Part shown: positions 12,015 through 35,505 of the stretch, in pieces
How the letters are laid out: each line of letters opens with the position of its first letter
Numbering within the stretch: the stretch's first letter is position 1
Assembly: GCA_026414565.1 (NCBI GenBank)
Contig: JAOAIT010000011.1
Span: forward strand, 1 to 37,231
From: Verrucomicrobiia bacterium
GTDB lineage: Bacteria; Verrucomicrobiota; Verrucomicrobiia; Limisphaerales; Fontisphaeraceae
Length of the DNA stretch: 37,231 bases
Direction: 5' to 3'
Notes under the pieces: model-generated
What the model saw: the letters and a program-made list of their open reading frames with translations, nothing else
What the model was told of the DNA's origin: nothing
Database searches by the model: none
Translations under genes and position numbers: made by a program

Positions 12015-15000
12015 TTGATGAAACGGCACGCAATCTGCTGCTATGTTCTGGTAGTGAAACGCCGTCTTGGCATAGTTCGGACCTGGCTGCCCTGTCTGGC
12101 CGCCTCCAGCGTGCTTTGGAGCGGTTTGACCGCCCCGGCGGCCCCTGCCGACGCCACCCCGGTGGTCTTAACCAATGTGCAGCAGGTCAGAATGTTGCCA
12201 CCCGAGGAAGCCGCCCGCGGCCTGCCCGTCAAAGTGCAGGGAGTGGTGACCTACTCCGACTATGCCTGGCATGCCTTGTTCATCCAGGACGAAACGGCCG
12301 GCATTTACGTGGGCGATGTCAGTATCGCCGAGCTGCCGCGCGTGGGCGATGGGGTGGTGCTGGAAGGCATTACCCAACCGGGCCATTTCGCTCCAGTCAT
12401 TCGGTGCAAACAACTGGAGCGGGTGGGCGAAAAACCCCTCCCCACTCCGGCCACTCCCCCCCTGTTTCAATTGGTCAGCGGGGCTTTCGACAGCCAATGG
12501 GTGGAGGTGGAGGGCACCATTCGCAGCGTATTTGTGGACGAATACCACCTGCGCTTCAAAGTGGCCGGCGGCGGTTATGTGTTTGATGCCCGAATTCCGT
12601 GGGACAAGAAGGAACAGCCGCCGCCGCAACTGATCAACGCCCGGGTGCGGCTGCAGGGGGCCTGTGGCACGGTCTTCAACAACCGCCGGCAGGCCATCGG
12701 CATGCAAATGCTGGTCCCCTCCCTGCGGCACGTGACGGTGTTGCGGCAGGAAACTGCGGATCCTTTCACCCAGCCGGCGCAGTCCATTGCCAGCCTGCTG
12801 CGCTTCAATCCCAACCTCGGCAATTACCAGCGCGTTAAAGTTGAAGGGGTGGTCACCCTGCGCCTGGGCGATGGCTCCTTTTTTGTGCAGGATAAAAGCG
12901 GCGGGGTGCGCGTGCGGCCCGCGGGGGGCGAGCCGGCCCGGGAAGGTTTTCAGGTGCAGGTAGTGGGTTTCCCCGTGGTGTACAACTACTCGCCCGAGCT
13001 GGTGGATGCCCAATTCCGCCTGGGCCCTCCGGCCGCCTGGCCGGCCCCCGTGCGCGCCTCGCTCAAGGAATTGATGACCGGCGATTTTGACGGGCAGCGG
13101 GTGGAAATCGAAGGCGAGCTGGCGGATGTCTCCCACCTGGCCTCCTCTGACCGCCTGGCCATTCGCACCCCCGAGGGCATGGTGGATGCGGTACTGGAAA
13201 AGAAGCTCGTGAACCTGAGCCATCTGGCCAAAGGCAGCCGGGTGCGGGTGACGGGGGTCTGCTGGATCACCGCCGATGAACAACGCCAGCCGCGCAGCCT
13301 GGTGCTGGCATTGAACAGCCTGCAGGACATCGTGGTGCTGGCCGCGCCGCCGTGGTGGACGCCGCAGCGGGCAGCCCTGGCGTTGATCCTGTTGGGCTGC
13401 AGCATCTTGCTGGGGGTGGGGTATGTGGCGTTGCTGCGCCGCCAGGTGCAGCGCCAGACCCGCATCATCCGCGAGCAGATGAATCAGGTGTCGCAGCTTG
13501 AGACACGGTACCGCCATTTTTTGGAGAATGCCGCCGGCATTTATTATCAGGTGGAACCGGCCAACTTTAAGCCCGTTTTCTTCCATGGCCAGGTGGAAAA
13601 AATTACCGGGTACCCGGAAGCCGATTTCAGCGGCCATCGGCGCTTCTGGCTGGATTTGGTGCACCCGGAGGACCGCGAGCGGGTCAAAGAGGAGGGCCGC
13701 AAGCTTATGCAGGTCCCGGGACACGTGGCGGCCCTGGAATACCGCATCGTGCGCGCTGACGGCAACGTCTGCTGGGTCCAGGATATTGCCCGCAATCAGC
13801 CGGATGCCCAAGGCAAGGTGGCCGCCATTTATGGCGCCATCTACGACATCACCGCCCGCAAGCGGGCCGAGGCCGAACAACGGCAACTGGAGGCCCAGTT
13901 GCGCCAGGCGCAAAAGATGGAGGCTGTCGGCCAGTTGGCCGCCGGCGTGGCGCATGATTTCAACAACATCCTCACCGTCATCCAGGGCAACGCCAGTTTC
14001 CTCGAGGAGGATGTCGGCCATCGCCCGGAGCTGCTGGAGGCCTGCCAGCAGATCACCGAAGCCGCCAACCGCGCCGGCGCCCTGACCCGCAAGCTGTTGT
14101 TGTTCAGCCGCAAGCAGGCCGTCCAGGCCCAGGCAGTGAATCTGAACGAGCTGGTGAGCAACCTGACGAAAATCCTGGGCCGCCTCATCGGCGAGCATAT
14201 CCAGATGCAATACCACTATGGCGCCGCCCTGCCGGCCGTGCTGGCCGACCCCGGCATGCTCGACCAGGTCATCGTGAATCTGGCGGTCAATGCCCGCGAC
14301 GCCATGCCGCAGGGCGGCACGTTGACCCTGGCCACCAGCGTGGCTGAATTCCAGGAGGCCGACCTGGCGGCCCATCCCGAGCGCCGGCCGGGGCAATTTG
14401 TCTGCCTCTCGGTCACCGATACCGGCTGCGGCATGACGCCCGAGGTGTTGCGCCACATCTTCGAGCCGTTTTTCACCACCAAGGAACCGGGGCGCGGCAC
14501 CGGCCTGGGGCTGGCCACCGTGTACGGCGTGGTCAAGCAACATCAAGGCTGGGTGGAGGTGCAGAGCGAGGTGGGCAAAGGCACCACCTTCCGCATCTAC
14601 CTGCCAGCCCAGCCCGTGGCCCAGGAAAAAGAAGACGCCGTCCAACCCCCCGATCCCCCGCCCAACGGCACCGAGCGCCTCCTCGTGGTGGAGGACGAGG
14701 CACCCGTGCGGATGCTGGTGGGCGCCGCCCTGCAGCGCCGCGGCTACCAGGTGGTGCTGGCCGCCTCCGGCCCGGAAGCCCTGGAACGCTGGGAGGAGCA
14801 CCACGGAGAGTTTGACATGCTCGTCACCGACATGGTGATGCCCCAGGGCATGACGGGCCTGGAGCTGGGCCGGCGGCTGCGTGCCAAAAAGCCGGGGCTG
14901 AAAATCATTTACATGAGCGGTTACAGCGCCGAGACCGCGCTGGCCGAAACTTCGCAGGATTTGCGCACCCGCTTCCTGGCCAAGCCCTACGCCACCACCG

Positions 15001-15083
15001 CCCTGCTGCAGTTGATTCGGGACGTGCTGGACGGGCGGCCGCTGGAGAAGCCGGCTCCCGCCGGCGCGACGCGCCTGGCCTGA
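12015..15083 (+). CDS. Hybrid sensor histidine kinase/response regulator with repeated OB-like sensor region
   Basis: A 1022-residue membrane sensor. An N-terminal signal/anchor segment is followed by a periplasmic region of about 400 residues containing four repeats built on V-x-V-[EQ]-G (near residues 72, 162, 273 and 362), resembling OB-fold/BOF-type beta domains. A membrane span lies near residue 455 (LALILLGCSILLGVGYVALL). Inside the cell come a short coiled coil, a PAS/PAC domain (YRHFLENAAG to YDITARKRAEAEQ), HisKA with His647 in GVAHDFNN, HATPase (NLAVNARDAM, DTGCGM, GRGTGLGLATVYG) and a receiver domain (VVEDEAPVRML, Asp939 in LVTDMVMP, Lys in AKPY). No DNA-binding output domain is attached, and the signal is unknown. 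Its last 97 bases overlap the convergent DUF420 gene. Confidence 0.93.
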   Translation: MMKRHAICCYVLVVKRRLGIVRTWLPCLAASSVLWSGLTAPAAPADATPVVLTNVQQVRMLPPEEAARGLPVKVQGVVTYSDYAWHALFIQDETAGIYVGDVSIAELPRVGDGVVLEGITQPGHFAPVIRCKQLERVGEKPLPTPATPPLFQLVSGAFDSQWVEVEGTIRSVFVDEYHLRFKVAGGGYVFDARIPWDKKEQPPPQLINARVRLQGACGTVFNNRRQAIGMQMLVPSLRHVTVLRQETADPFTQPAQSIASLLRFNPNLGNYQRVKVEGVVTLRLGDGSFFVQDKSGGVRVRPAGGEPAREGFQVQVVGFPVVYNYSPELVDAQFRLGPPAAWPAPVRASLKELMTGDFDGQRVEIEGELADVSHLASSDRLAIRTPEGMVDAVLEKKLVNLSHLAKGSRVRVTGVCWITADEQRQPRSLVLALNSLQDIVVLAAPPWWTPQRAALALILLGCSILLGVGYVALLRRQVQRQTRIIREQMNQVSQLETRYRHFLENAAGIYYQVEPANFKPVFFHGQVEKITGYPEADFSGHRRFWLDLVHPEDRERVKEEGRKLMQVPGHVAALEYRIVRADGNVCWVQDIARNQPDAQGKVAAIYGAIYDITARKRAEAEQRQLEAQLRQAQKMEAVGQLAAGVAHDFNNILTVIQGNASFLEEDVGHRPELLEACQQITEAANRAGALTRKLLLFSRKQAVQAQAVNLNELVSNLTKILGRLIGEHIQMQYHYGAALPAVLADPGMLDQVIVNLAVNARDAMPQGGTLTLATSVAEFQEADLAAHPERRPGQFVCLSVTDTGCGMTPEVLRHIFEPFFTTKEPGRGTGLGLATVYGVVKQHQGWVEVQSEVGKGTTFRIYLPAQPVAQEKEDAVQPPDPPPNGTERLLVVEDEAPVRMLVGAALQRRGYQVVLAASGPEALERWEEHHGEFDMLVTDMVMPQGMTGLELGRRLRAKKPGLKIIYMSGYSAETALAETSQDLRTRFLAKPYATTALLQLIRDVLDGRPLEKPAPAGATRLA

Positions 15084-21951: not shown

Positions 21952-23091
21952 CTACCAGCGGGTAAACTTGCGCCGGTAGGCCAGCGGCGTCATCCCCTTT
22001 TCCGCCCGGAAATAGCGGGCAAAGTGCTCCTGGCCCTGAAACCCCATCGCCTCCGCAATGTGGCTGATGGGCTGGTTGGTTTCCTCGAGCATCCGGCAAA
22101 TCCGCTCCACGCGCACGCGGGCAATTTCCCGCCGGATCGAGCGATCCAGCAGGGCGCGAAACTGTTTCTCCAACGCCCGCCGCGACATGCCGGCAGCCCG
22201 GGCCACCTCGGCCACGGACAACGGCACATGGGCATGGGTGCGGATGAACCGCAGCGCCGCCGCCAGCCGGGCATCCTGCACCGCCAAAATGTCGGTGGAC
22301 TGGCGGGTGATGACCCCCACCGCCTGCGCCACAATGCGGAGGGTGGGCGGCCGCTGGCCGCGCATAAGCCGGTCCAGGAGCTGGGCGCTCTCGTACCCGG
22401 CACGCTCAAAGTTCACTGCCACCGAGGACATGGGCGGCGCGCTGAGCTCGCACACCAGCTCATCGTTGTCCACGCCCACCACCGCCACCTCATCCGGCAG
22501 GCGCAGGCCGGCGAGTTTGGCGGCTTCGATGACCTGCTGGCCGTGATCATCATTGCAGGCCATCACCCCCACCGGGTGCGGCAGTTTTACCAGCCATTGG
22601 GCCAGCCCGCGCCGCTCCTCCTCGCTGGAAGTATCCGGCGGCGTCTGATAGATTTCCGGGGCCAACCCCGCCGCCGCCACGCGCCGGGCAAAACTGGCGG
22701 CGCGTTCCTGGCTCCAGGGCACCCCCGCCAGCCCGTAATAGGCCAGATGTTTCAGGCCGCAATTCAACAGGTGTTCAGCGCCCAGCCGCCCGATGGTTTC
22801 GGTGTCGGACACCACGTTCACCACCCCGGGCACTTCCTGGCGGCTGTGGCCCACCACCACCAGCGGCACGCGGTATTCCAGCGCCTCCTCCACCCGGTCC
22901 ACATCCCGCATGATGATGCCGTCGGCCTGAAACGTGCGCAGATGCGGCCAGGCCTTCTCCAGCCCGCCCGTTTCCCAGTGACACAGCCAGCGCCCATGAT
23001 GCCGCGCAAAGCTGGCAATCCCCCGCAACAGGCTGCGGCCGGCGGCGCGGGAGGATTCAATCAGCAGCAAAACCCGGTAGAAACGGTGCAT
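21952..23091 (-). CDS. XylR-type transcriptional regulator (LacI-like sensor plus AraC HTH)
   Basis: A 379-residue regulator. The first 270 residues resemble the periplasmic-binding/LacI sugar-sensing fold (VLLLIESSRAAGRSLLRGIASFAR, ADGIIMRD, PLVVVGHS, VGVMACNDDHGQQVIEAA, VAVVGVDNDELVCELSAPPMSSV). The C-terminal 100 residues are an AraC-type double helix-turn-helix (SVAEVARAAGMSRRALEKQF; ISHIAEAMGFQGQEHFARYF). This is the architecture of E. coli XylR, which activates xylose genes when xylose binds. The start chosen is ATG 23091; a longer open frame upstream would add an Arg-rich segment overlapping the sensor kinase gene. It lies 4 bases downstream of that kinase gene, so the two are co-transcribed. 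Confidence 0.92.
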   Translation of the reverse strand: MHRFYRVLLLIESSRAAGRSLLRGIASFARHHGRWLCHWETGGLEKAWPHLRTFQADGIIMRDVDRVEEALEYRVPLVVVGHSRQEVPGVVNVVSDTETIGRLGAEHLLNCGLKHLAYYGLAGVPWSQERAASFARRVAAAGLAPEIYQTPPDTSSEEERRGLAQWLVKLPHPVGVMACNDDHGQQVIEAAKLAGLRLPDEVAVVGVDNDELVCELSAPPMSSVAVNFERAGYESAQLLDRLMRGQRPPTLRIVAQAVGVITRQSTDILAVQDARLAAALRFIRTHAHVPLSVAEVARAAGMSRRALEKQFRALLDRSIRREIARVRVERICRMLEETNQPISHIAEAMGFQGQEHFARYFRAEKGMTPLAYRRKFTRW

Positions 23092-23095
23092 GGCA

Positions 23096-26000
23096 TCACG
23101 GCTCCGGCGCGGCGCCGGCCTCCGGCGGCGGCGGAGAAACCGGGGCGGCGGCCGCCGGCGCCGCCAGCGGGAGGCGGGCCACAATGGTGGTGCCCCGCCC
23201 GCGCCGGCTGACCACGGTGAACCGGCCGCCCAGCGCGGCGGCTCGCTCGCGCATGCTCAGCAGGCCCAGCCCCTCGCTGCGCTGCCGGGCCTTCGGCGGC
23301 AGGCCGGTCCCATTATCGCGCACGCGCAAGATCACCTGCTCGTTCGTCCGGGCCAGGTTGACCCGCACCCGCGTGGCCTGCGCGTGGCGGATGATGTTGG
23401 TCAGCGCCTCCTGCAAAATGCGAAACAACGCCGTGGCCATGCGGGAATCCAACTGGTCCAATCCTTCGTCGCAATGCACCTGGCACGGGATGCCGGTGCG
23501 CCGCTCAAACTCCTGCGCCTGCCATTCAATGGCGGCCGGCAAACCCAGATCATCCAGCACCCCCGGCCGCAGCTCGCTGGAAATGCGGCGCACCGATTGA
23601 ATGGTCTGGTCCACGACCTTCATCATGTCCGCCAGCCGCGCCTCCAGGGCGGCGGGCTCCCGTTGCAAATTGCGGGCCACCCACGCCAGGTCCAGTTTCA
23701 GGCTGGTCAGGCACTGGCCCAGGTCATCGTGGATTTCGCGCGCAATCTGGCGCCGCTCCTCCTCGCGCACAATCTCCAGCCGCTCGGCCAGCGTGCGCAG
23801 TTGCTCGCGGGATTCCCGAATGGCCAGCTCGGCGCGTTTGCGCTCCGTGATGTCCAGCGCCAGCGAGAGCACGTGCGGCTCGCCGCCCAGGTCCACCGGC
23901 GCCGCCGACAGCAGGCAGTCAATCAGCCCCTGTTTGAGGCGCAACCGCACCTCCAGATTGCGCACCGTCCCGCCCCGGCGCAGCGGCTCGGTCATCCGCT
24001 CCCGCATCTCGGGGCTTTCATACAACCCCAGCTCCATGGTGCTCTTGCCAATGACCTCCTCGCGGCTCAGGCCCAGGCAGCGCAGGAAATAGTCATTGGC
24101 ATTGACAATCAACCCGTCCCGCAGCCGCGTGACGAGCATGAGAATGGGACTGAGATGGAAGGCGCGGGAAAACCGCTCCTCGGAGCGCCGCAGCTCCTCC
24201 TCGGCCAGTTTGCGCTGGGTGATGTCCAGCACGCTGCACAACACGCCAATGATCTCGCCGGCGCCCGAGCGCAGGGGCGAGTAGGTGGCCTGATGCCATC
24301 CCCGCCGCCCGGTGGCCGGCACCAGATAGGCGGCGTCCGCCCCTTCGTGCACCTCGCCGCGCAAGGCCCGGCGCAGCAGCTCCTCCGGCGTCTCGTTGCC
24401 CGCCAGCCACACCAGCGCATGCAGATACTGGCCCCGCGCCTGCGCCTCCTCCAGGCCGGTCATGCGCTCAAGATAGGGATTCCACAGCCGGCACCGCAGC
24501 TCCCGGTCAAACACCGCCAGCCCGCTGGCGGCCGACTGCACAATGGCCCGGTTGAAGTTCTCCGAGGTGCGCAGCGCCTCCTCCGCCAGATGCCGTTCAA
24601 GCACGTTGGCCAGCACTTCGGAAAACAGCCGCAGCACGCCCTCATGCTGCGGCCCCCAGCGCATCGTGCCGGTCACGTCATCAAACCCCACAAACCCGCT
24701 GAAGCGCCCCTGCACCGGCACCGCCACCAGCAGCAGCGAGGCGATGTTTTGCGCCTGCAACAATTCCTGCTCGCGCCGCGCCTCCGGCGGCATGCGGCTC
24801 ACATCCGGGATGTGCAGCACGCCGTGCCGGGCCAGCATGTCCATGCTCCACCGCACCTCCTCCACCGGGATGTTCTGCAGATTCTGGATTTCCGGGCGCA
24901 CCCCCTCCGCGCACCATTCGTGGGTGTTGGAAATAAAGCGGCCGTCCTCGCTGAAGCGGAAGAGATAGGCGCGGCCCGCCTGGCAGAACCGGCCCAAATC
25001 CGCCAGCGACTGTTGAATGGCCTGATCCAGATGGCAGGGCCCCACAAACCGCGACGAAATCGCCAGCAGCGTGCTCTCAAATTCCAGCCGCTCCATGAGC
25101 GCCCGCTCCGCCTGCACCCGCCCCGTCACATCCAGCATGATCCCCAGACTGCTGGGCAGGCCGCCCGCCTCCGGCGGCAACGGCAGAATCCGCGTGTCAA
25201 ACACCCGCCCCTGCCATTCGTGGCGCAGGGAGACCCGCTCGCCCCGCAGCGCCCGCCGGCAGGCCGCGGTGAATTCCGGCAGGTCCTGCACCACCGTGAA
25301 AATGGACACCCCCACCACCTGCCGCGGCGCCAGCCCCAACGATTGCAGCACCGAGCCTTCCGCCGTGATGATGATCCCCTCAGCGTCCATGGCCCACAGG
25401 AAGATGGGCGCGTGATCCAGCAGGGTTTGCAGTTGGCGGCGCTGGTGCTCGATCTGCAGCTCCATTTTCTTGCGCGGCGTAACATCCCGCCCAAACAGTG
25501 CCACATACAGCACCTGCCCCCCCGGCCCGCGCACCGGATAAAACGAGGCCTCATAGTACAACCCGCCAAATTCCCCCTCCACCGTCGTCGCCTGGCCGCT
25601 GGCCAACAGTTGGCGGAACAACGCCTCCGTTGCCGGCCGCACCTCCGCCGGCAGAAAGTCCCACATCCGCCGGCCAATCAAATCGCCCGGCGCGTCCCCC
25701 AGCCGCATGGCCGCCACCGGATTCGCCAGCACCACCCGGCCTTCGTTGTCCAGCAACAAAATGCTTTCGCCCGCCCCTTCCAGCACGGCGCGCAACCGGC
25801 TCTGAAACTCGAGCAGCTCGGCCAGCAGTTGATCCCGGTCCGCCTCCGCTTTTTTGCGCTCCGTAATATCGCGGCTGAAACAAGCCAGGCAGCACGGCTG
25901 GCCGGTTTGATCCAGGATGGGGGTGAACCGATGCTCCAGCCAGCGCCCCCCCCGCTGATCCTCAAAAAACACCGACGTGCCCGTCTGAAACGCGCGTTCC

Positions 26001-26701
26001 CCCCACTGAAAACGCAGGCGGGCCACCTCCGGCGGCAGAAAATCCGCAATGTTCTGCCCCACCATGTCCTCCACCGCCTTGCCCAGGCGCTCGGCGGCGG
26101 TGCGATTGGCAATCAGCACCCGCCCCTGCCGGTCCAGCAACAGAATGCTCTCCCGCGCCGCGTTGAGCAGCATCCGCAGGTCCTGCTGGGCGGTCAAATC
26201 CGCGGGGACAACACCCCCGCAACAGGCCAGCTCGGAAGCGATCGGCGGCTGATACGCCGGGCCGTCCTCCCGCAGCAGCACGGTGGTATCTTCAGCCACC
26301 GGCATCTCGCGCAGTTGCAGCAACACGCCCTGCACGGGTCCTTCCGGCGTCTGAACCGGGCGCACCAGCACGGAAAACCAGCCGGTGGCATGGGAGTGAA
26401 TGAAATCCAGGCAAAGATAGGGCAGCCGTTGCGGCTGGCCCGCCAAGGCCTGTAGGATCATCGCCCGCAAAGCCCCCACCTGATCCCCTTTGAACAGCTC
26501 CGCCAGCGAGCGGCCGCCCAGCTCGGCCGCCGCCAGACCCGCCAGCCGCGCAAAGGTGGCGTTGCACCACCGCACCCGCAAATGCCGATCCACCAGCACC
26601 AGCCGGTCGCCCAGGCTCTCCAACAACACCTGGCACAGCTCCGGGGACAACTCCGGCCCGCGCGGATCTTCACGTGATGGCTCAGGAATGGGCGCAGTCA
26701 T
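23096..26701 (-). CDS. Multi-PAS/GAF sensor histidine kinase (NarL/DesK-type)
   Basis: A 1201-residue soluble histidine kinase without membrane spans. In order: PAS (about residues 20-130), PAS-PAC ending DITERKKAEADR (about 285), PAS-PAC ending DVTPRKK (about 410), PAS ending DVTGRVQAE (about 530), a GAF-like domain (about 545-700), PAS-PAC ending DITQRKLAEEE (about 835) and PAS-PAC ending DITERKRAE (about 960). Then come HisKA_3 with phosphoacceptor His991 in REIHDDLGQ and a HATPase with EALTNIIRHAQA, DNGTGLPP and GLGLLSMRER. This kinase class normally pairs with NarL/LuxR-type regulators, but the next gene is a XylR-type regulator with no receiver domain. The cytoplasmic signal(s) are unknown; an orphan partner elsewhere is likely. 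Confidence 0.93.
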   Translation of the reverse strand: MTAPIPEPSREDPRGPELSPELCQVLLESLGDRLVLVDRHLRVRWCNATFARLAGLAAAELGGRSLAELFKGDQVGALRAMILQALAGQPQRLPYLCLDFIHSHATGWFSVLVRPVQTPEGPVQGVLLQLREMPVAEDTTVLLREDGPAYQPPIASELACCGGVVPADLTAQQDLRMLLNAARESILLLDRQGRVLIANRTAAERLGKAVEDMVGQNIADFLPPEVARLRFQWGERAFQTGTSVFFEDQRGGRWLEHRFTPILDQTGQPCCLACFSRDITERKKAEADRDQLLAELLEFQSRLRAVLEGAGESILLLDNEGRVVLANPVAAMRLGDAPGDLIGRRMWDFLPAEVRPATEALFRQLLASGQATTVEGEFGGLYYEASFYPVRGPGGQVLYVALFGRDVTPRKKMELQIEHQRRQLQTLLDHAPIFLWAMDAEGIIITAEGSVLQSLGLAPRQVVGVSIFTVVQDLPEFTAACRRALRGERVSLRHEWQGRVFDTRILPLPPEAGGLPSSLGIMLDVTGRVQAERALMERLEFESTLLAISSRFVGPCHLDQAIQQSLADLGRFCQAGRAYLFRFSEDGRFISNTHEWCAEGVRPEIQNLQNIPVEEVRWSMDMLARHGVLHIPDVSRMPPEARREQELLQAQNIASLLLVAVPVQGRFSGFVGFDDVTGTMRWGPQHEGVLRLFSEVLANVLERHLAEEALRTSENFNRAIVQSAASGLAVFDRELRCRLWNPYLERMTGLEEAQARGQYLHALVWLAGNETPEELLRRALRGEVHEGADAAYLVPATGRRGWHQATYSPLRSGAGEIIGVLCSVLDITQRKLAEEELRRSEERFSRAFHLSPILMLVTRLRDGLIVNANDYFLRCLGLSREEVIGKSTMELGLYESPEMRERMTEPLRRGGTVRNLEVRLRLKQGLIDCLLSAAPVDLGGEPHVLSLALDITERKRAELAIRESREQLRTLAERLEIVREEERRQIAREIHDDLGQCLTSLKLDLAWVARNLQREPAALEARLADMMKVVDQTIQSVRRISSELRPGVLDDLGLPAAIEWQAQEFERRTGIPCQVHCDEGLDQLDSRMATALFRILQEALTNIIRHAQATRVRVNLARTNEQVILRVRDNGTGLPPKARQRSEGLGLLSMRERAAALGGRFTVVSRRGRGTTIVARLPLAAPAAAAPVSPPPPEAGAAPEP

Positions 26702-27903: not shown

Positions 27904-29421
27904 TCAGCGCCACCACGGACGGGCCGTCCCCCGGCCGGCAACCACAAAACCGCCGCCCGTTGCCCACCGCCCAAATGCTCCCGGCTGGACTGGCCGCACC
28001 GCCGCCGGCCGCGGCGGCGGCGCGCGCTGGAGGAGTTTGATGAGGCCGATGGCAAACACCGCTCCGCCGATGACAATGCCCGCCAGCGCCACCCACTTGA
28101 GGGGGGAATTGTAATTCTGGAGTTGCATCCAGCCAATCACACCGCAAATCACCGCCAGCAGGCCAAACCAGTGCAAATTGGGAATGATCGCCACAATGGC
28201 CACCGCCAGCGCCGCCAGCGCAAAGTAATTCAACGGCGGGGCTTCCTCGGGCATCTTCACCGGCGCCCGGGCCGGCGCCGGCGCCACCGCCACGCTGGTG
28301 TGCAGCGGCTGCGTGGCGGCCTCGCGCCCGGCGGCGCTGTAATCTTTGGCGGCCGCCGCGGCCGCCGGCGGCGGGGCCGGGGCCGCCGCCGGGCGGCTGG
28401 CCGGCACGGGCGCGGGCGGCGACGGACGCGTGCCCGTGGGCCGCGCGGGCAGTTCCACCGCCGCCAGCCATTCCGGCACGGCCGAGACCGGGGCCGGTTG
28501 CGCGGCCGGCTCCGGCAGGGAGCCGCTGGCCAGGGCGTCAAGGGTGGATTCAAAGGTGGGCACCTGGGCAATGGGCCAGATACAGGCCCGCTCCAACACC
28601 GCCGCCAGTTTCTGCACCCGCGGATCCACGTGCTTTTTCAGCCGCGCAAACACCTTGGAGTTGCGCGGGTCCTTGAAATCGTTGGCCAGAAAAATCAGGT
28701 TGTCCCCCGTGTGAAACTGCTGCCACAACGCCGGCTCCCCCGCCAGCGCCAAAAAGCTGGTGTAAATGACCAGCGCGGCAAAATTGTCGAGGTTGATGTC
28801 GTAATAATCCGGCGTGCGGCGGGGATGCTGGTAGTTGGCGTGGCCCAGCTCGGGGCTGCGCCCCTGGCCGAAGGCGGGCACATACATGCCGTCATAATCC
28901 ACCAGCCGGAACTGGCCGTCCGGCAGGCACATCACGTTGCCATGCTGCAGGTCGCCATGCGCAATTTGATTGGCGCGCAAATCCTTCATCATCACCCGCC
29001 ACTGCTCCGCCAGGCGCAACAGGGTTTCCGGCTCCTGCACGTGATCCTCGATGTACATGTGCATGGGCGTGCCGGCCACCCAGTCCATCTTCACGATCGG
29101 ATACAGCTCGTTGCGCAGCCGGATGCCCCGCAGTTGAAACTCAAATCCCACCAGCCACGGCAGCGTCACCGCCTGCAAATGCCGCGTGAGCAGATTGTAA
29201 CGCACCTGCTGGTTGGCCACCTGCCGCACAAAGCAGCGAATGGCGTAATGCTTGCCGTTGACGGTGGTCAGCTCGTACACGCTGGCAAAGTTGCCCGACA
29301 TCACCCGCGGCATCCCCAGCATGTCCGTCGCCACCGTGGCGGTTTTGAGCTCCTCCTCCAGAAAGCAGACCTGCGGATTCTGGATGGCGTCCTGATAATC
29401 GGTGTGGGAGGGCCAGTTCAT
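27904..29421 (-). CDS. Atypical membrane-anchored Ser/Thr-type protein kinase (TerY-P-like triad)
   Basis: 505 residues from ATG 29421; a GTG at 29445 would overlap the phosphatase gene. The N-terminal 300 residues are a divergent protein kinase: glycine-rich loop SGNFASVYEL (residues 42-51), catalytic loop HGDLQHGN (155-162), metal-binding DYDG (175-178) and LDNFAALVIY for helix F. The usual VAIK lysine position holds Arg62 (HYAIRCFVR). Next is a Pro/Ala-rich linker of about 100 residues and then three hydrophobic segments (NYFALAALAVAIVAII, WFGLLAVICGVIGWM, WVALAGIVIGGAVFAIGLI) that anchor it in the membrane. It directly follows the PP2C and vWA genes, the composition of the predicted TerY-P signalling triad. 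The substrate is unknown. Confidence 0.85.
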   Translation of the reverse strand: MNWPSHTDYQDAIQNPQVCFLEEELKTATVATDMLGMPRVMSGNFASVYELTTVNGKHYAIRCFVRQVANQQVRYNLLTRHLQAVTLPWLVGFEFQLRGIRLRNELYPIVKMDWVAGTPMHMYIEDHVQEPETLLRLAEQWRVMMKDLRANQIAHGDLQHGNVMCLPDGQFRLVDYDGMYVPAFGQGRSPELGHANYQHPRRTPDYYDINLDNFAALVIYTSFLALAGEPALWQQFHTGDNLIFLANDFKDPRNSKVFARLKKHVDPRVQKLAAVLERACIWPIAQVPTFESTLDALASGSLPEPAAQPAPVSAVPEWLAAVELPARPTGTRPSPPAPVPASRPAAAPAPPPAAAAAAKDYSAAGREAATQPLHTSVAVAPAPARAPVKMPEEAPPLNYFALAALAVAIVAIIPNLHWFGLLAVICGVIGWMQLQNYNSPLKWVALAGIVIGGAVFAIGLIKLLQRAPPPRPAAVRPVQPGAFGRWATGGGFVVAGRGTARPWWR

Positions 29422-29434
29422 GAGGCGAGGCGGT

Positions 29435-30220
29435 TCAGGATTCACTCTCCCAGCGGATGACCACCAGGGTCATGTCATCATTGCGCACGCCCTGCTCCTT
29501 GCGCAGGCGCTCCGACAGCTCGGCAAACTGCTGCTCATTCTCCAGGGCCAGCAGCGTCTCCCACGGTTTCTCCCCCGCTTCATGCCGCTCCAGGAACCAC
29601 TTGGCCAGCGCATCGGTGGCCAGAAAGAAACGATCCCCCGCCTTGACGCCGCCCGAGGCGGCCTTGATGTCGCGCAACGCCGAGTAATTATGGTTCTCAT
29701 TGCTGGCCAGCAGGATGGGGCGGCTGCTGAATTCATCGCTGCGGGCCACGGGGAAGGTGGCAATCATCTGGTCCTCCCGCACCTGAAAGAGGTTGCTGTC
29801 CCCCACCGCAAAGGCATTCCATTTCAGCTCCTCCCCCTGCAGGGTGCGGCTCACAATCTTTTCCCACACCGTCCCGTGCGCCGCAAATTCCAGTGCCAGA
29901 AACGTCGCAAACGCCCCATTCTCCGCTTTTTCCTGGCAGTACCACGGCAGATTGCCCCAGTCAATGCTCTGCCGCCATTCATGCTGCAGGGGCAGCATCC
30001 ACAGCATCATCGCGTCCTCGCTGGGCGGCATGCCAAAGGGCGGCTCGGCGATGTAGGCCTTGACCAGGCTCTGGGCCCAGCGATCGCTGAACGCCGACTC
30101 CGTGGCGCCATCGGCTATGGCAAAACGCAGGCAGCCCAGCTCATACGCAAATGCGTCATCGCATTCGTCCATCGAATAGCCGTGCTTGGGCAGGCGAAAG
30201 GCGGTGACAATGGGGACCAC
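29435..30220 (-). CDS. PP2C-type protein phosphatase (TerY-P-like triad)
   Basis: A 261-residue PPM/PP2C-family phosphatase starting at GTG 30220, the only plausible start. Metal-binding motifs are recognisable: acidic residues in MDECDDAF (near 18-25), ADGAT with Asp37-Gly38, FAVGDSNLF (near 141), FFLATDALAKW and the C-terminal RNDDMTLVVIRW. An insert of about 60 residues between the first two motifs (WQHEWR-like helical region) distinguishes it from canonical members. It lies 14 bases after the vWA gene and ends 13 bases before the kinase ATG, so the three form an operon. It probably reverses the kinase's phosphorylation. Confidence 0.88.
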   Translation of the reverse strand: MVPIVTAFRLPKHGYSMDECDDAFAYELGCLRFAIADGATESAFSDRWAQSLVKAYIAEPPFGMPPSEDAMMLWMLPLQHEWRQSIDWGNLPWYCQEKAENGAFATFLALEFAAHGTVWEKIVSRTLQGEELKWNAFAVGDSNLFQVREDQMIATFPVARSDEFSSRPILLASNENHNYSALRDIKAASGGVKAGDRFFLATDALAKWFLERHEAGEKPWETLLALENEQQFAELSERLRKEQGVRNDDMTLVVIRWESES

Positions 30221-30234
30221 GAGGCGGCGGTAGT

Positions 30235-31071
30235 TTAGCGCAGGTTGCTGCCGCGGGTGCCGATGTCCAGGAAGCGGATGAGTTCCACCAGGTCCGCGTT
30301 GAACGCAAAGCCCCGCGCTTCCGGCCCCAGGTTGAAACCCTCGGCCAGGGCCAGCTCCCGCATGCTGGCCGGCAGCACGCTGGAGATGGAGAACAGGGTC
30401 TTGGCGAATTCATCCGGCAAATCCGCGTCCGACTCCGGGAAAATGATCGGCTGCACCGGCTGGCTGGAAATGTGGCAGTTCAACAGCAGCACGTTGCCGT
30501 CGTCCGTGGCCAGGCTGGTCAGCTCCTGCGCCTGCGGCACCGGCCCGCTGTCGGTGGCCTCGCCATCGCTGATGTTGATGACAATCGGCGGATACGACGC
30601 CATGTGCCGCTGCACCCACTCCCGCAAAATCTTGCACGCCATGCTCAACGCCGTGCCCATCGGCGTGATCCCCTTGGCCACCGGCTCGAACCAGATGGGA
30701 AACTTGACCTTCTGCTCGATGATGCCCCCGCTGCCGTCATCCACCTTGCGAATCCGCTCCTCAATGCGGGCCGGGGAGCTCGCCACCTCGCTCAACGGCA
30801 CCAAATCCCGCCCCGCCAGCGGGCCGCTGAACGCCGGCGCCACCGTCGCCCCATAGCCAATCACGCAGACCTCGTAAAAATTGCGCACCCCGTCCCCCCG
30901 GGCGCATTTGATGATCAGGTTGTGCAGCAGGCGGTTGATGGCGTCGGCCACACTGTCGCACTTGCGTTTGTTCTCACTGCCGGCAATCGGCTCCACCATC
31001 GAGCCGGACTGGTCAATGAGAAACATGAACACACTGGGGTTGGCACGACTGATTTCGGCTGAATAAGGCAT
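30235..31071 (-). CDS. von Willebrand A-domain protein (TerY-like)
   Basis: A 278-residue cytoplasmic vWA protein starting at ATG 31071; a longer frame upstream has no support. The metal-ion-dependent adhesion site is complete: DQSGS (residues 20-24), the Thr in ITPMGTALS and the Asp in VINISDGEATD. Cytoplasmic vWA proteins of the TerY type are thought to be metal-dependent scaffolds. It is the first gene of a tight operon with a PP2C phosphatase and an atypical kinase, the order and content of the TerY-P triad. The C-terminal third (FSISSVLPASMRELALAEGFNLG) is a helical extension of unknown role. The assignment as TerY-like rests on the operon and vWA type. Confidence 0.87.
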   Translation of the reverse strand: MPYSAEISRANPSVFMFLIDQSGSMVEPIAGSENKRKCDSVADAINRLLHNLIIKCARGDGVRNFYEVCVIGYGATVAPAFSGPLAGRDLVPLSEVASSPARIEERIRKVDDGSGGIIEQKVKFPIWFEPVAKGITPMGTALSMACKILREWVQRHMASYPPIVINISDGEATDSGPVPQAQELTSLATDDGNVLLLNCHISSQPVQPIIFPESDADLPDEFAKTLFSISSVLPASMRELALAEGFNLGPEARGFAFNADLVELIRFLDIGTRGSNLR

Positions 31072-31432
31072 ACCGTTGGCTCGTGTTTTGGCTTCGGCTT
31101 GCTCGCTTGCTCCGCGCCAGGACGCTGCTGCGTCAACCGCCACATCGCCTGGATGTCCAACAAATAGCAGCCCACCGTCTAAAAAGCAATCAGAGTTTTA
31201 ACCGCCTCCAGCCCCGCCGGCCCCACCCCCCGCCACCAACGCATAAGCTGCGCGCCACCCATGCCTTTTGGTTTCCCGCTTTACAGGACTGGTGGCCGGG
31301 CCTTGATCCCCCGAAATTTCCCGGTTCCGGTTGGTCTCCCCCCCACAAATCTCTTGCGCCCTCCGCGGTTTTCCATTAGCAAGAGGCCGTGCAAGAAAAA
31401 AAATAATCAACCTCAACCCAACGAAATTCCCT
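31072..31432. other. Divergent intergenic region between vWA operon and xylA
   Basis: 361 bases separate the divergent vWA operon and xylA. No gene is supported. Both promoters must lie here, but no good -35/-10 pair was picked out. The last 50 bases before xylA are A-rich (AAGAAAAAAAATAATCAAC) with no clear Shine-Dalgarno. No palindrome resembling a XylR operator was recognised by eye. Confidence 0.5.
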
Positions 31433-32749
31433 ATGGCTGCTGCTGCATTCCCCCAAATCAAGCGCATCGAATACGAAGGCCCCCAATCCAAAAACCCCCT
31501 CGCATTCAAGCATTATAATCCCGATGAAGTGGTGGAAGGCAAAACGATGAAAGAACATCTCCGCTTCTCGGTGGTGTACTGGCACACCTTCCGCGGGCGG
31601 GGGGTGGACCCCTTCGGCGCCGGCACCATGATCCGCCCCTGGGATGACGGCACCGACTCCCTGGAAAACGCCAAACGCCGCGTCCGGGTGGCCTTCGAGT
31701 TCATGGAAAAACTGCAGGCCCCCTTCTATGCCTTTCACGATCGCGACGTGGCCCCCGAAGGCAAAACCCTCCGCGAAACCAACAAGAATCTCGATGCCGT
31801 CGTCAAAGTCCTCAAGGAGGAGCAGAAGCGCACCGGCATCAAGCTGCTCTGGGGCACGGCCTGCCTCTTCGCCCATCCCCGCTACGTCCACGGCGCCGCC
31901 ACCAGTTGCAACGCGGACGTGTTTGCCTACGCCGCCGCCCAGGTCAAGAAATGCCTCGAGGTCACCCACGAGCTGGGCGGCGCCGGCTACGTGTTCTGGG
32001 GCGGCCGCGAAGGCTACTCCACGCTCTACAACACCGACTTGAAACGCGAGCTGGAGCACCTGGCCAAATTCCTGCACATGGCGGTGGATTACAAAAAGAA
32101 GATTGGATTCAAGGGCCAGTTCTACATCGAACCCAAACCCAAGGAACCCACCAAGCACCAGTATGACTCCGACGCCGCCGCCTGCCTCAACTTCCTCCGC
32201 GAGTACGGCCTGAAGGATCATCTGAAATTGAACCTCGAAACCAACCACGCCACCCTCGCCGGGCATACCATGCAACACGAGCTGGAAGTGGCCGGCGCCG
32301 CCGGCGCCCTCGGCTCCATTGACGCCAACACCGGCGACGAGCTGCTGGGCTGGGACACCGACCAATTCCCCACCAGCGTGTATCTCACCACCCAGATCAT
32401 GCTCACCATCCTCAAGTACGGCGGCTTCACCACCGGCGGCGTGAATTTCGACGCCAAGGTCCGCCGCGAAAGCTTCGAGCCGATTGACCTCTTCCACGCC
32501 CACATCGGCGGCATGGATGCCTTTGCCCGCGGCCTCAAAATCGCGGCGGCCATCCGCAAGGACGGCCGGCTGGCCGAGTTTGTCCAACAGCGCTACAGCT
32601 CCTGGGACAGCGGCATCGGCGCCAAAATCGAGAAAGGCGAAGTCGGCTTCGAAGAGCTGGAGGCCTACATGCTCAAGAAGGGCGAGGCCGCGCCCAACGC
32701 CAGCGGCCGCCAGGAATACCTGGAAAACCTCATCAACGAATTCATCTGA
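31433..32749 (+). CDS. xylA: Xylose isomerase
   Basis: A 438-residue class II xylose isomerase (E. coli type, normal length), converting D-xylose to D-xylulose. Active-site and metal residues by position: His102 and Asp105 in [10 protein letters not shown], Glu233 and Lys235 in [14 protein letters not shown], Glu269 and His272 in [11 protein letters not shown], Asp297 in SIDANTGD, Asp308 and Asp310 in GWDTDQFP, and Asp340 in [13 protein letters not shown]. The chosen ATG gives MAAAAFPQI and fits homologue length. No xylulokinase or transporter is adjacent; a XylR-type regulator is encoded 8 kb away. A strong terminator follows. Confidence 0.98.
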
Positions 32750-32787: not shown

Positions 32788-32820
32788 ACGGCCGGGCGCA
32801 CAGGCCCGGCCGTTTTTATT
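32788..32820 (+). terminator. Strong intrinsic terminator after xylA
   Basis: A perfect 10-bp GC-rich stem (ACGGCCGGGC / GCCCGGCCGT) with a 6-base loop, then TTTTTATT. It lies 38 bases after the xylA stop and overlaps the stop codon of the convergent cytochrome gene at 32816. Confidence 0.92.
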
Positions 32821-35287
32821 GGCCCGGGGCCGGGGCTGGCCGCTGCCCCTCCAAATACTGCACCAGCCGCAGCATCTCCGGATCTCCGGGGTTGATGGCC
32901 AGTGCCCGCCGCGCCGCGGCGCGGGCCTCGGGCAGCCGGCCCATGCGCGCAAAGACGGTGGCCGCCGCGTAGGGAATCCGCGCCTCGCCCGGCGCCAACG
33001 CCTCCGCCCGGCGCAGGGCCTCCACCGCCCCGGCCGGATCGCCCAGCCCATTGCGGGCCAGCCCCAGATTGTACCATGCCCGATGATGGTTGGGATCCAG
33101 CCGCACCGCCTGCTCCAGCGCGGCCGCGCAACCGGGCAGATCATTGGCCTCGTTCAAGGCCAGGGCCAGTTTGTAATGCATCTCCGCCTCCTGCGGGGCC
33201 AGCCGCACCGCCTCCCGCAGTTGCCGCACCGCCTCCTGAATCTGGCCGGCCTGGCTCAAAATCACCGCGTACTCATGCCGGATCGCCGCCGAGCGCGGAT
33301 CCCACGCCACAGCCCGCTGAAAATGCGACGCCGCCTGCGCGCCCTCGTTCCGCGCCAGATAATACAGCCCCAGTTGCATCTGGCCCGCCGGTTGATCGGC
33401 GTTTAGTTCCAAGGCGTGCAAATACTCCCGGGTCACCGGCGCCTGTGGCGCCAGTTGCCCCCGCAGCGCCGTCGCCGCCTGGAAGCGCACCGCCCGGATG
33501 GGGTCCTGCAGCGCCGCCCGCAACGCCTGCTCCACCGCCGGCGGCGCCCGCTCGCCGTTGCGTGTCAAGCCCCCCAGCGCCTGCGCCACATGCGCGCGCA
33601 CCAGCTCGTTCGTGTCGGCCAGTTGCCTGACCAGGGCGGCGGTGACCTCCGCCTCCTGCAGCCACGGCTCCAGCAAATTCGCCGCCGCCGCCCGCCAGTA
33701 GGGAATGGGATCGCGGCGGAGCATCTCCAGCAACGGCCCGCGCGCCGCCGGATCGCCACGCCGGGCACGGGCGATGGTTTGCGCGCGCTGCCGGTAGGGG
33801 CGGTTCATTTTCTCGCCGTACCACTTGTCCACCCATTCCATGGCCCAGTCCACCGTGTTGGTGGTGTGGCAGCGGTTGCAGGCGTTGGGGATGCCAAACT
33901 GTTTGGTCAGCCACGGATCCGGGATGGTCCAGCCATGATCATGGCGCCAATGGCGCTGCATGAAGGGCGTCTGCGGCATGTGGCAGTTCACACACTGCCC
34001 GCCCGTTTCCTTGATGTTTTTGAAATCGGTGGTGTTCAAATCCACCTCCACCAGCTCGCCGTTGGTGTTCACAAACGGATTGAACACCTTGTGAAAACTG
34101 TGCTTCACCGGATCAATGATCGGCGCGTTGGTGTGCGCGCCCTCATGACAACGGGCGCACAGCAGGTTGCCCGGCAGCAGCGGCTTCATGGTGTGCGGAT
34201 GATGACAGTCGGCGCAGGTCACGCCCCCCTGCGCGTGCATCCGGCTGCCCAGGAAGGGCGCAAACTCGTAGTCCTCATCCCGAATCTGGCCATCGGCATG
34301 AAACAAATCGCTCCCATCCACCATCTGCAGCATGAAATGATCCCAGAAATGATCCCCCGGCTTGAAGTCGCCGGTGAGATCCATCCGGCGCGCATGGCAA
34401 AAAGCGCACGTGTGCAACATCTGCTGCCGGGTGGGCTTGCGCAGGGTGGGATCCGGCAGCCCCGAGCCTTTATTTTTATATTGCCATTCATTGTGGGCTT
34501 TCAGCGGGCCGTGGCAGGCCTCGCACCCCACGCCCATCTCCGCCATCGTCGTGCGATATGCATCGGTGCGGGCGTCGTAATTCTTGCGCAACCGCGTGTT
34601 GTGACAGCCCGCGCACATGCTGTTCCAATTCATGCCCCGCCCCGACCAGTGCCCCCACTCCCCCGGCTGGCGATCCTCCTCCCCAAACACATTAAACCAC
34701 TCGTTGGTCACCGGATCATAGGAGGCCTCCAGCGTCTGCCAACGCCCCCCCGGGAAGGGCGTCAGATATTGCCGCAGCGGCAGATGCCCAATCACCCGCT
34801 CCACCACAAACGGCCCGTGATTCGTCGGGCCGGGCGTGCGCACTTCGAATCGGCCCTGCTCATACCGCACCCCGGTGAATTGCGTGCCGTGCTTGAACGC
34901 CCGCGGCGGCTCAAAGGCCGAACGGTCCACCGCCGCATCCATCGGCCGCTCCGCCAGCGCATGGTGGGACTGCCGCCACTGCTCATACGCCTCCTCGTGA
35001 CATTCCCGGCAGCTTGCCGAGCCGCCATATTGCGCAAACACCTCCTGCTCCGGCACCAGCTCAAAAAAGGTGGGTTTGTTGGTGCCCGCGCCGGCCGCGC
35101 CTCCGGCCAAGGCCCCGGCCGGAGCCTGAACAACTGGCGCCGCGCCCGGCTTCCGCAGCCACCACCCCACCACCGCCGCCGCCACCACCAGCCCGCACAA
35201 CCCGCCCACCACCCACCCCGGCAGACCCCGGCGGGAAGCCGGAGCAGGCCGGGCGGGCCGTCGGGCGCGTTGTGGGGTGGCGCTCAT
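32816..35287 (-). CDS. Membrane-anchored octahaem cytochrome c with HEAT and TPR repeats
   Basis: An 823-residue protein starting at ATG 35287 (the longer open frame lacks support). An Arg/Pro-rich cytoplasmic head is followed by one membrane span (about residues 23-43) and a periplasmic part. Eight CxxCH haem-binding motifs are visible: CRECH, CAGCH, CEACH, CAFCH, CADCH, CARCH, CVNCH and CNRCH. After the haem region come HEAT-like repeats (about 510-620) and then several TPRs (about 630-810; for example QLGLYYLARNEG, EMHYKLALALNEAN, AWYNLGLARNGLGD). This layout matches cytochrome c554-like multihaem/TPR proteins of Planctomycetes and Verrucomicrobiota, whose partners are mostly unknown. It is divergent from a small membrane protein gene. 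Confidence 0.93.
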   Translation of the reverse strand: MSATPQRARRPARPAPASRRGLPGWVVGGLCGLVVAAAVVGWWLRKPGAAPVVQAPAGALAGGAAGAGTNKPTFFELVPEQEVFAQYGGSASCRECHEEAYEQWRQSHHALAERPMDAAVDRSAFEPPRAFKHGTQFTGVRYEQGRFEVRTPGPTNHGPFVVERVIGHLPLRQYLTPFPGGRWQTLEASYDPVTNEWFNVFGEEDRQPGEWGHWSGRGMNWNSMCAGCHNTRLRKNYDARTDAYRTTMAEMGVGCEACHGPLKAHNEWQYKNKGSGLPDPTLRKPTRQQMLHTCAFCHARRMDLTGDFKPGDHFWDHFMLQMVDGSDLFHADGQIRDEDYEFAPFLGSRMHAQGGVTCADCHHPHTMKPLLPGNLLCARCHEGAHTNAPIIDPVKHSFHKVFNPFVNTNGELVEVDLNTTDFKNIKETGGQCVNCHMPQTPFMQRHWRHDHGWTIPDPWLTKQFGIPNACNRCHTTNTVDWAMEWVDKWYGEKMNRPYRQRAQTIARARRGDPAARGPLLEMLRRDPIPYWRAAAANLLEPWLQEAEVTAALVRQLADTNELVRAHVAQALGGLTRNGERAPPAVEQALRAALQDPIRAVRFQAATALRGQLAPQAPVTREYLHALELNADQPAGQMQLGLYYLARNEGAQAASHFQRAVAWDPRSAAIRHEYAVILSQAGQIQEAVRQLREAVRLAPQEAEMHYKLALALNEANDLPGCAAALEQAVRLDPNHHRAWYNLGLARNGLGDPAGAVEALRRAEALAPGEARIPYAAATVFARMGRLPEARAAARRALAINPGDPEMLRLVQYLEGQRPAPAPGQ

Positions 35288-35505
35288 GGGAGTAGATGTT
35301 AGGCAGGGCCTCCTTGCGGAGGCAACGCCAAGATGCAAACGTTGTTGCCCACCTCCCCTCCAGACCTTCCTCCCTCCCACCCGCAAACCGGCAAAATGGC
35401 CGCAAGGTGATACACTTTTCCCTGCCCGCCCCCTTGCAATATGTTACATTCAGGTGACGGGTCAATGACGCTGCCGTAACAAGGCGGCGGGAAAGGCGCA
35501 GGCTT

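Follow-up and report, generated by a model that had tools for sequence, protein, structure and literature searches.

A free-standing TerY-P-type triad in Limisphaerales with a predicted membrane bundle in the C-terminal part of its kinase

The window, that is to say the whole stretch of DNA analysed here (37,231 nucleotides; contig JAOAIT010000011.1 of assembly GCA_026414565.1), comes from a Verrucomicrobiia bacterium of the order Limisphaerales. At positions 27904–31071, it carries three closely packed minus-strand genes for a vWA protein, a PP2C phosphatase, and a divergent kinase, the position at which a preliminary description had placed a stand-alone TerY-P triad. The terY-like vWA gene (30235–31071) encodes 278 residues; its open reading frame (ORF) spans 30235–31143, with the ATG at 31071 as the conserved start. 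Fourteen bases separate this gene from the PP2C gene (29435–30220, 261 residues), which the kinase gene (27904–29445) either overlaps by 11 bases or follows at a distance of 13 bases, depending on whether the kinase starts at the GTG at 29445 or at the ATG at 29421. The kinase gene encodes a kinase domain (residues 9–298 of 513; 28552–29421), a Pro/Ala-rich linker (28228–28551), and a predicted C-terminal three-helix membrane bundle (28027–28227), all on the minus strand.

Profile searches with PADLOC revealed that all three proteins match the TerY-P profiles (TerY 8.3e-100, PP2C 1.5e-36, and STK_OB 8.5e-80). Therefore, the preliminary description was right in its family assignment. The Pfam matches are weak (Pkinase 2.7e-4, below the cut-off; PP2C_2 2.5e-6; VWA_2 5.1e-6), and NCBIfam gave no match above its cut-offs for the triad proteins. 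The domain types and active sites read from the letters are confirmed by these profiles and by the conservation of the catalytic and metal-binding residues in relatives, which were collected by a two-peptide-pattern scan of an 84,980-species genome collection (at least 95 relatives, of which 80 were kept). The metal-ion-dependent adhesion site (MIDAS) of TerY, DQSGS...T...D, is intact, and its residues D20, S22, S24, T136, and D169 do not vary among the 35 TerY rows aligned. A cruder text pattern applied to 81 TerY ORFs found D.SGS in 72, TPM in 81, and [TS]DG..TD in 71; thus, the MIDAS deviates in some distant TerY rows. The TerY model (predicted local distance difference test score, pLDDT, 88.8) has a vWA fold, for which integrin I-domains rank first among the structural matches, archaeal ArnB (8s05) ninth, and VWA2 (5a8j) 28th; no solved structure of a TerY relative was found at E 0.1 or better. 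The metal-binding aspartates of PP2C are intact, and, counting rows with a letter at the position, D37, D203, D248, and D249 are present in 77 of 77 and D141 in 78 of 78. The model of the kinase domain, with confidence mostly above 90, resembles PknA/PknB and many eukaryotic kinase domains, and the motifs HGDLQHGN and DYDG hold residues that are kept across 75 rows (H163, D183, and D185 in 75; D165 and N170 in 74). The beta3 lysine site is occupied by Arg70 in the window kinase, and by Arg in 60 and Lys in 15 of the 75 TerY-P kinases; Lys119, close to the hinge, is conserved in 73 of the 75. The frequent Arg at the beta3 site together with the conserved Lys119 is an unusual ATP-site arrangement, and an oddity of the TerY-P kinase family.

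The preliminary description overlooked the C-terminus of the kinase, in which neither an OB fold nor a zinc ribbon was found and a membrane bundle is predicted from sequence. Comparison with other TerY-P kinases revealed that (i) the STK_OB match of the window kinase covers only positions 1–294 of the 562-position profile, and the matches of the window kinase and of the L018, L035, L041, L053, and L068 kinases end at residues 289–300, by contrast with coverage of 1–555, 1–559, and 1–522 in L080, L086, and L094; (ii) a profile of the OB half, built from 20 C-termini, did not find this half in the window kinase (E 0.66). In leave-one-out runs, 20 of 21 members passed at 4e-45 or better and L105, placed in the OB set, failed; the profile also picks up L092, L081, L043, L044, and L045; (iii) profile scans gave no zinc-ribbon match on the window kinase; and (iv) the kinase domain is followed by the linker, in which pLDDT falls below 50 at residues 327–332 and 340–386, and then by three well-modelled helices (residues 399–410, 419–433, and 440–465), whose designation as a predicted membrane bundle is based on hydropathy and on a match to DUF4190. 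The E-value of this match is 0.0078 in the window, 0.0014 in L016, and 0.0093 in L017; L028 has no match.

The C-termini vary among the 13 triads of the order. A DUF4190-like bundle or hairpin is found in four of them (the window, G001, G002, and G013), one C-terminal membrane segment in three (G004, G051, and G088), and one or more membrane segments followed by a WD40 propeller in five (G007, G017, G028, G032, and G055); in G064, the kinase C-terminus is lost at the contig end. A WD40 propeller downstream of the membrane segment is present in six relatives in all, and no WD40 match was found within the last 422 residues of L061. The kinase of the planctomycete L049 continues from its membrane segment into glycosidase/lectin-like domains, and that of L053 (Nitrospirota) has a weak zinc-ribbon match and TPR.

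A quick tree of the kinase domains of 75 rows separates an OB side of 27 rows (support 97) from a non-OB side of 48 rows (support 97). The window kinase falls within a set of 15 Verrucomicrobiota rows (support 98), and the kinases of L054 and L061, which are also from Verrucomicrobiota, fall closer to Planctomycetota. We defined a membrane segment as 19 residues with a mean hydropathy of at least 1.8 and at most one charged residue, and excluded L034, L055, L066, and L067, which are cut, and L089, a near-copy of L088. By this rule, segments occur in 38 of the 44 uncut kinase C-termini on the non-OB side, in 10 of the 26 on the OB side, and in 82 of 880 shuffled sequences; the controls gave 5 of 70 for kinase domains, 1 of 70 for PP2C, and 0 of 70 for TerY. 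The six non-OB kinases without a segment are L068 and L072 of Paenibacillus, which lie just below the threshold, and L053, L056, L063, and L087 of Nitrospirota. Examples of Paenibacillus loci of the non-OB type are L062, L068–L073, L075–L078, and L104. The OB-type kinases L082, L086, L093, L097, L099, and L101 have a hydrophobic segment at the extreme C-terminus in some cases and a short amphipathic stretch in others, and the antiphage OB class may also be attached to membranes. An amphipathic helix as the general anchor of OB kinases was rejected: a moment of at least 0.5 was obtained for 13 of 25 tails, 14 of 110 neighbour proteins, and 0 of 25 PP2C proteins, and since TerY tails score equally high (23 of 25), the moment is unspecific and nothing was built on it.

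The three genes are conserved together. TerY, which is single-copy in its own genome, is present in 13 of the 97 genomes of the same order (its own among them) and in none of the 14 control genomes, and PP2C and the kinase stand beside it in all 13. The triad proteins thus neither grouped with unrelated families nor separated in relatives, either of which would have spoken against the preliminary description. Among the 80 fetched stretches, tblastn found PP2C in 80, with a few weak or fragmentary cases such as L042, and the kinase in 76; three of the kinase-less stretches (L029, L042, and L079) stop at a contig edge and the fourth (L065) does not. Pairwise protein distances over 68 complete loci are correlated at 0.84–0.91, compared with a maximum of 0.125 in 500 permutations, as expected for genes that are inherited together, with a contribution from the common descent of the hosts. 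Reading frames are broken in single triad genes of several relatives (TerY of L032 and L025; kinase of L058, L060, and L095), which is either assembly error or decay. A foreign origin of the triad was considered and found no support, since its GC content and its GC content at third codon positions (GC3) resemble the values of its neighbours.

Ratios of nonsynonymous to synonymous substitution rates (dN/dS) against the congener G001 are 0.026 for TerY, 0.058 for PP2C, 0.035 for the kinase domain, 0.051 for the membrane bundle, 0.155 for the linker, and, in the tail, 0.298. The low values of TerY, PP2C, and the kinase domain argue that the triad genes are not there by chance. Against the distant L017 and L028, for which dS is 1.1–1.5 and silent sites are near saturation, the ratios are 0.08 and 0.11 for TerY, 0.33 and 0.29 for PP2C, 0.09 and 0.10 for the kinase domain, 0.38 and 0.38 for the bundle, and 0.34 and 0.49 for the linker.

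TerY-P is generally regarded as a stress or antiphage module linked to nucleic acids, and a stand-alone antiphage module of TerY, PP2C, and STK_OB was reportedly described by Gao et al. in 2020. PMC11090510 and PMC7699616 present TerY-P-like modules with an OB-fold kinase as stand-alone antiphage systems. Therefore, the stand-alone state of the window triad, which the preliminary description had put forward, holds in that the triad is free-standing and has no common neighbour, but it is not the unusual part. The antiphage modules share with the window triad the same three genes, their homology, their adjacency, and the lack of a further obligate gene, and differ in that the window kinase has a predicted membrane bundle in place of the OB fold, lies on the other side of the kinase tree, and belongs to a triad without common defence neighbours. 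The TerY-P of CoCoNuT- and Ter-linked systems, as presented in PMC11090510 and PMC4978471, likewise consists of a MIDAS vWA protein, a PP2C, and a kinase; by contrast, the window has no zinc-ribbon match on its kinase, no TerD in its genome, and no McrBC-like gene among the scanned proteins (no CoCoNuT/McrBC-like gene was found among 18 other window proteins scanned with Pfam). For the GAP1-N2 loci of actinobacteria, PMC7159879 mentions kinases that carry a zinc ribbon or transmembrane (TM) helices as fusions and that stand beside PP2C and a standalone vWA gene. Because this source mentions TM-helix-fused kinases, membrane fusion in such triads has already been seen; the GAP1-N2 triads it treats are tied to GTPase loci in actinobacteria, whereas the window type stands by itself in Verrucomicrobiota and other phyla, where no conserved neighbour was observed, though no GAP1-N2 profile was searched.

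The neighbourhoods were compared by using crude gene calls of at least 100 residues within 6 kb, with at most six nearest neighbours per locus, and PADLOC at 1e-15. No neighbour was common to the whole set, at the level of crude gene calls. In the window, ruvB adjoins the triad; in the congener G001, the triad (3.99 Mb) is separated both from the 98% identical ruvB (3.05 Mb) and from the xylose-isomerase-like gene (4.64 Mb), and a link to ruvB was therefore dropped. The lack of a common neighbour and the different places of these two genes in the congener argue that the triad is a free-standing cassette. The OB set comprised 103 neighbour proteins from 22 loci, and the other set the first 103, nearest first, of 234 neighbours from 53 loci; L029, L042, L065, L079, L089, L102, the window, and duplicate loci were left out. 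Counting matched families and not proteins, so that one protein may match many, the neighbours of OB loci matched 216 PADLOC families and those of the other loci 27, and the few OB-side loci in the other set (L040, L043–L046, and L081) work against this contrast. Among the 25 listed matches of OB neighbours are type I methyltransferases, Sng, MADS, HamB, and Aga_SIR2 models, and one missed triad kinase; those of the other set include, among 25 listed, missed triad pieces (STK_OB 2, PP2C 1) and the PD-T4-6, mad6, C3a189, and E1-E2 models, with one member each for the first three and one for the E1-E2 models. The PD-T4-6, mad6, and C3a189 models are kinases by their descriptions. In the window itself, nine proteins close to the triad were scanned, and none matched a PADLOC family at 1e-15. 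The link to DNA processing suggested in the preliminary description finds no support in these neighbourhoods, in which common neighbours are absent, defence matches are few near non-OB triads, and ruvB lies elsewhere in the congener.

We lean, with modest confidence, towards a full phospho-switch of the TerY-P type. Its kinase would be tethered to the inner membrane, and the switch probably serves to sense the cell envelope and not phage defence triggered by nucleic acids. The genes are adjacent and co-inherited, their sites are intact and under purifying selection, the bundle is also present in the kinases of the nearest relatives, and common defence neighbours are absent. Also in favour are the PADLOC profiles of all three genes, the STK_OB match confined to the kinase half, the lower dN/dS of the bundle than of linker and tail against the congener, the membrane segments of most non-OB C-termini, the WD40 propellers of six relatives, the place of the window in the kinase tree, the contrast between the two neighbour sets, and the failure to find TerY in phage records and viral contigs. 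Because the kinase has a predicted membrane anchor and not an OB-fold part, the triad probably responds to the envelope and not to viruses. A flexible tether would carry the kinase domain in the cytosol, and the membrane part, together with the WD40 or other large domain beyond the segment in relatives, may report how the membrane or envelope is faring. In response, the kinase would phosphorylate TerY, or a protein held by the TerY MIDAS site, and PP2C would strip the phosphate and reset the switch. TerY may serve as a phospho-regulated binding platform whose choice of partner is altered by phosphorylation, by analogy with the Arn network described below, and, as the output, an assembled complex or transcription would change.

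Several results weigh against this envelope-sensing phospho-switch. Membrane anchoring alone cannot separate the OB and non-OB classes, because the OB-side kinases have segments too (10 of 26). The OB and non-OB labels require three changes, not one, in the TerY and PP2C trees, so that the split is clear but not perfect. The DUF4190 match of the window lies below the curated cut-off of Pfam, membrane insertion is a prediction, and the bundle sequence is poorly kept beyond the genus, as its linker-like dN/dS of 0.38 against L017 and L028 indicates. The two neighbour sets behind the defence contrast come from different hosts, the OB set mostly from Proteobacteria, a group whose defence genes are probably better represented in PADLOC, which possibly favours the contrast. 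The patchy distribution (13 of 97 genomes) and the variation of neighbours even within the genus also fit an accessory or defence gene.

The last two points bear on the reading that the triad is an antiphage TerY-P after all, in which the bundle takes the place of the OB fold as effector or sensor and, for instance, depolarises the membrane or senses the injection of phage. This reading, which draws further on the fact that the triad and kinase domain are the same as in the reported antiphage modules, seems to us rather doubtful. No OB fold was found in the window kinase, defence profiles are few near non-OB triads and lacking for the nine window neighbours, and, under purifying selection, the congeners share 99% identity in TerY and 94% in the kinase domain. 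In addition, no phage-borne copy was found: searches for TerY gave nothing in 50,697 phage records, nor did a pattern scan of viral contigs; it was present in 2 of 72,556 plasmid records.

The envelope-sensing switch may be extended, more tentatively, to a second, receptor-like branch of TerY-P, composed of a cytosolic kinase, a membrane segment, a swappable part beyond the segment, and a soluble TerY/PP2C switch. Such a branch would be a bacterial transmembrane receptor-kinase system for sensing the envelope that shares an ancestor with the phage-defence module and that, in some Verrucomicrobiota, is connected to the assembly of type IV pili in an Arn-like manner. The parts beyond the segment are a WD40 propeller in Verrucomicrobiota, lectin/glycosidase-like domains in a planctomycete, and other domains elsewhere. 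If the core of vWA protein, PP2C, and kinase also acts as a membrane-bound sensor away from defence islands, automatic annotation as “TerY-P defence” on the basis of TerY, PP2C, and kinase-half matches would be wrong for such triads of Verrucomicrobiota, Planctomycetota, and Paenibacillus, and the roles of the TerY MIDAS and the kinase would become testable through the C-terminal module. We found no literature that separates a membrane branch from an OB branch of TerY-P or links such a branch to WD40 or pili, in a search that mostly did not extend to subscription papers.

According to PMC12852372 and PMC7472852, the kinase ArnC of Sulfolobus directs the phosphorylation of ArnB, a vWA protein, and this switches the complex of ArnB with ArnA in a motility-control network. 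In these accounts, as proposed for the window, a vWA protein is switched by a Ser/Thr kinase and a phosphatase, and the vWA folds match; the Arn network differs in being archaeal, in using PP2A and not PP2C, and in having the FHA partner ArnA, so the likeness is one of working without sequence membership. The triad could accordingly be read as an Arn-like regulator of type IV pili in Verrucomicrobiota, the kinase and phosphatase setting the vWA state as they do in the control of the pilus-like archaellum in archaea. In 4 of 18 Verrucomicrobiota loci, a count that missed genes and short contigs may affect, the triad adjoins pilM and pilus genes: pilM and further genes directly follow the kinase gene on the same strand in L038 and L032, and pilM is divergent from TerY in L024 (G051) and L029. 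That both orientations occur hints at more than one arrangement. In L038, Pfam matches PilM_2 and Secretin_N; PilN and PilO are read there from gene position. We nevertheless regard the pilus regulator as unlikely, even with ArnB and VWA2 among the TerY fold matches and the Arn network of PMC12852372 in its favour. Among the 11 triad genomes with a strong pilM, pilM adjoins the triad in two (G051 and G055) and lies on another contig or far away in eight, including that of the window; for G064, the 3.3-kb triad contig leaves adjacency undecidable. Moreover, ArnB is one of many vWA fold matches, and an inherited shared position would yield the same pattern.

PpkA/PppA is a threonine-phosphorylation pathway of the type VI secretion system (T6SS) with kinase, PP2C, and vWA parts that resemble the triad. 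Membership in this pathway is very improbable, the resemblance and a VipA gene in the own genome (G000) notwithstanding: G001 and G002 have the triad and no VipA match, and the VipA of G000 is on another contig. This lack of co-occurrence (VipA in one of three triad genomes, and unlinked there) largely refutes the T6SS reading. The VipA (TssB) gene of G000 lies at C17:93872–94264. Equally remote is a tellurite (Ter) stress system, to which the name and the vWA family point. TerD (PF02342) was found in 0 of the 13 triad genomes, and the only TerC gene of the own genome is on another contig (C61), which, as regards TerC and TerD, agrees with the preliminary description, in which no such gene was visible in the window.

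Additional genes accompany some Nitrospirota triads. An extra large gene, which Pfam identifies as vWA in L053, precedes TerY on its upstream side in the loci L053, L055, L057, L058, and L063, which include Magnetominusculus; another gene, identified by Pfam as TPR in L053, lies downstream of the triad in L053, L057, and L063. In the window, the triad region is flanked by a XylR-like regulator with Peripla_BP_3 and an AraC-type helix-turn-helix (21952–23184) and by the xylose-isomerase-like gene (31331–32749). Two further genes encode large PAS-containing histidine kinases (23096–26701 and 12015–15083), the second with a receiver domain, and another (32816–35386) encodes a multihaem cytochrome c-type protein fused to HEAT and TPR repeats.

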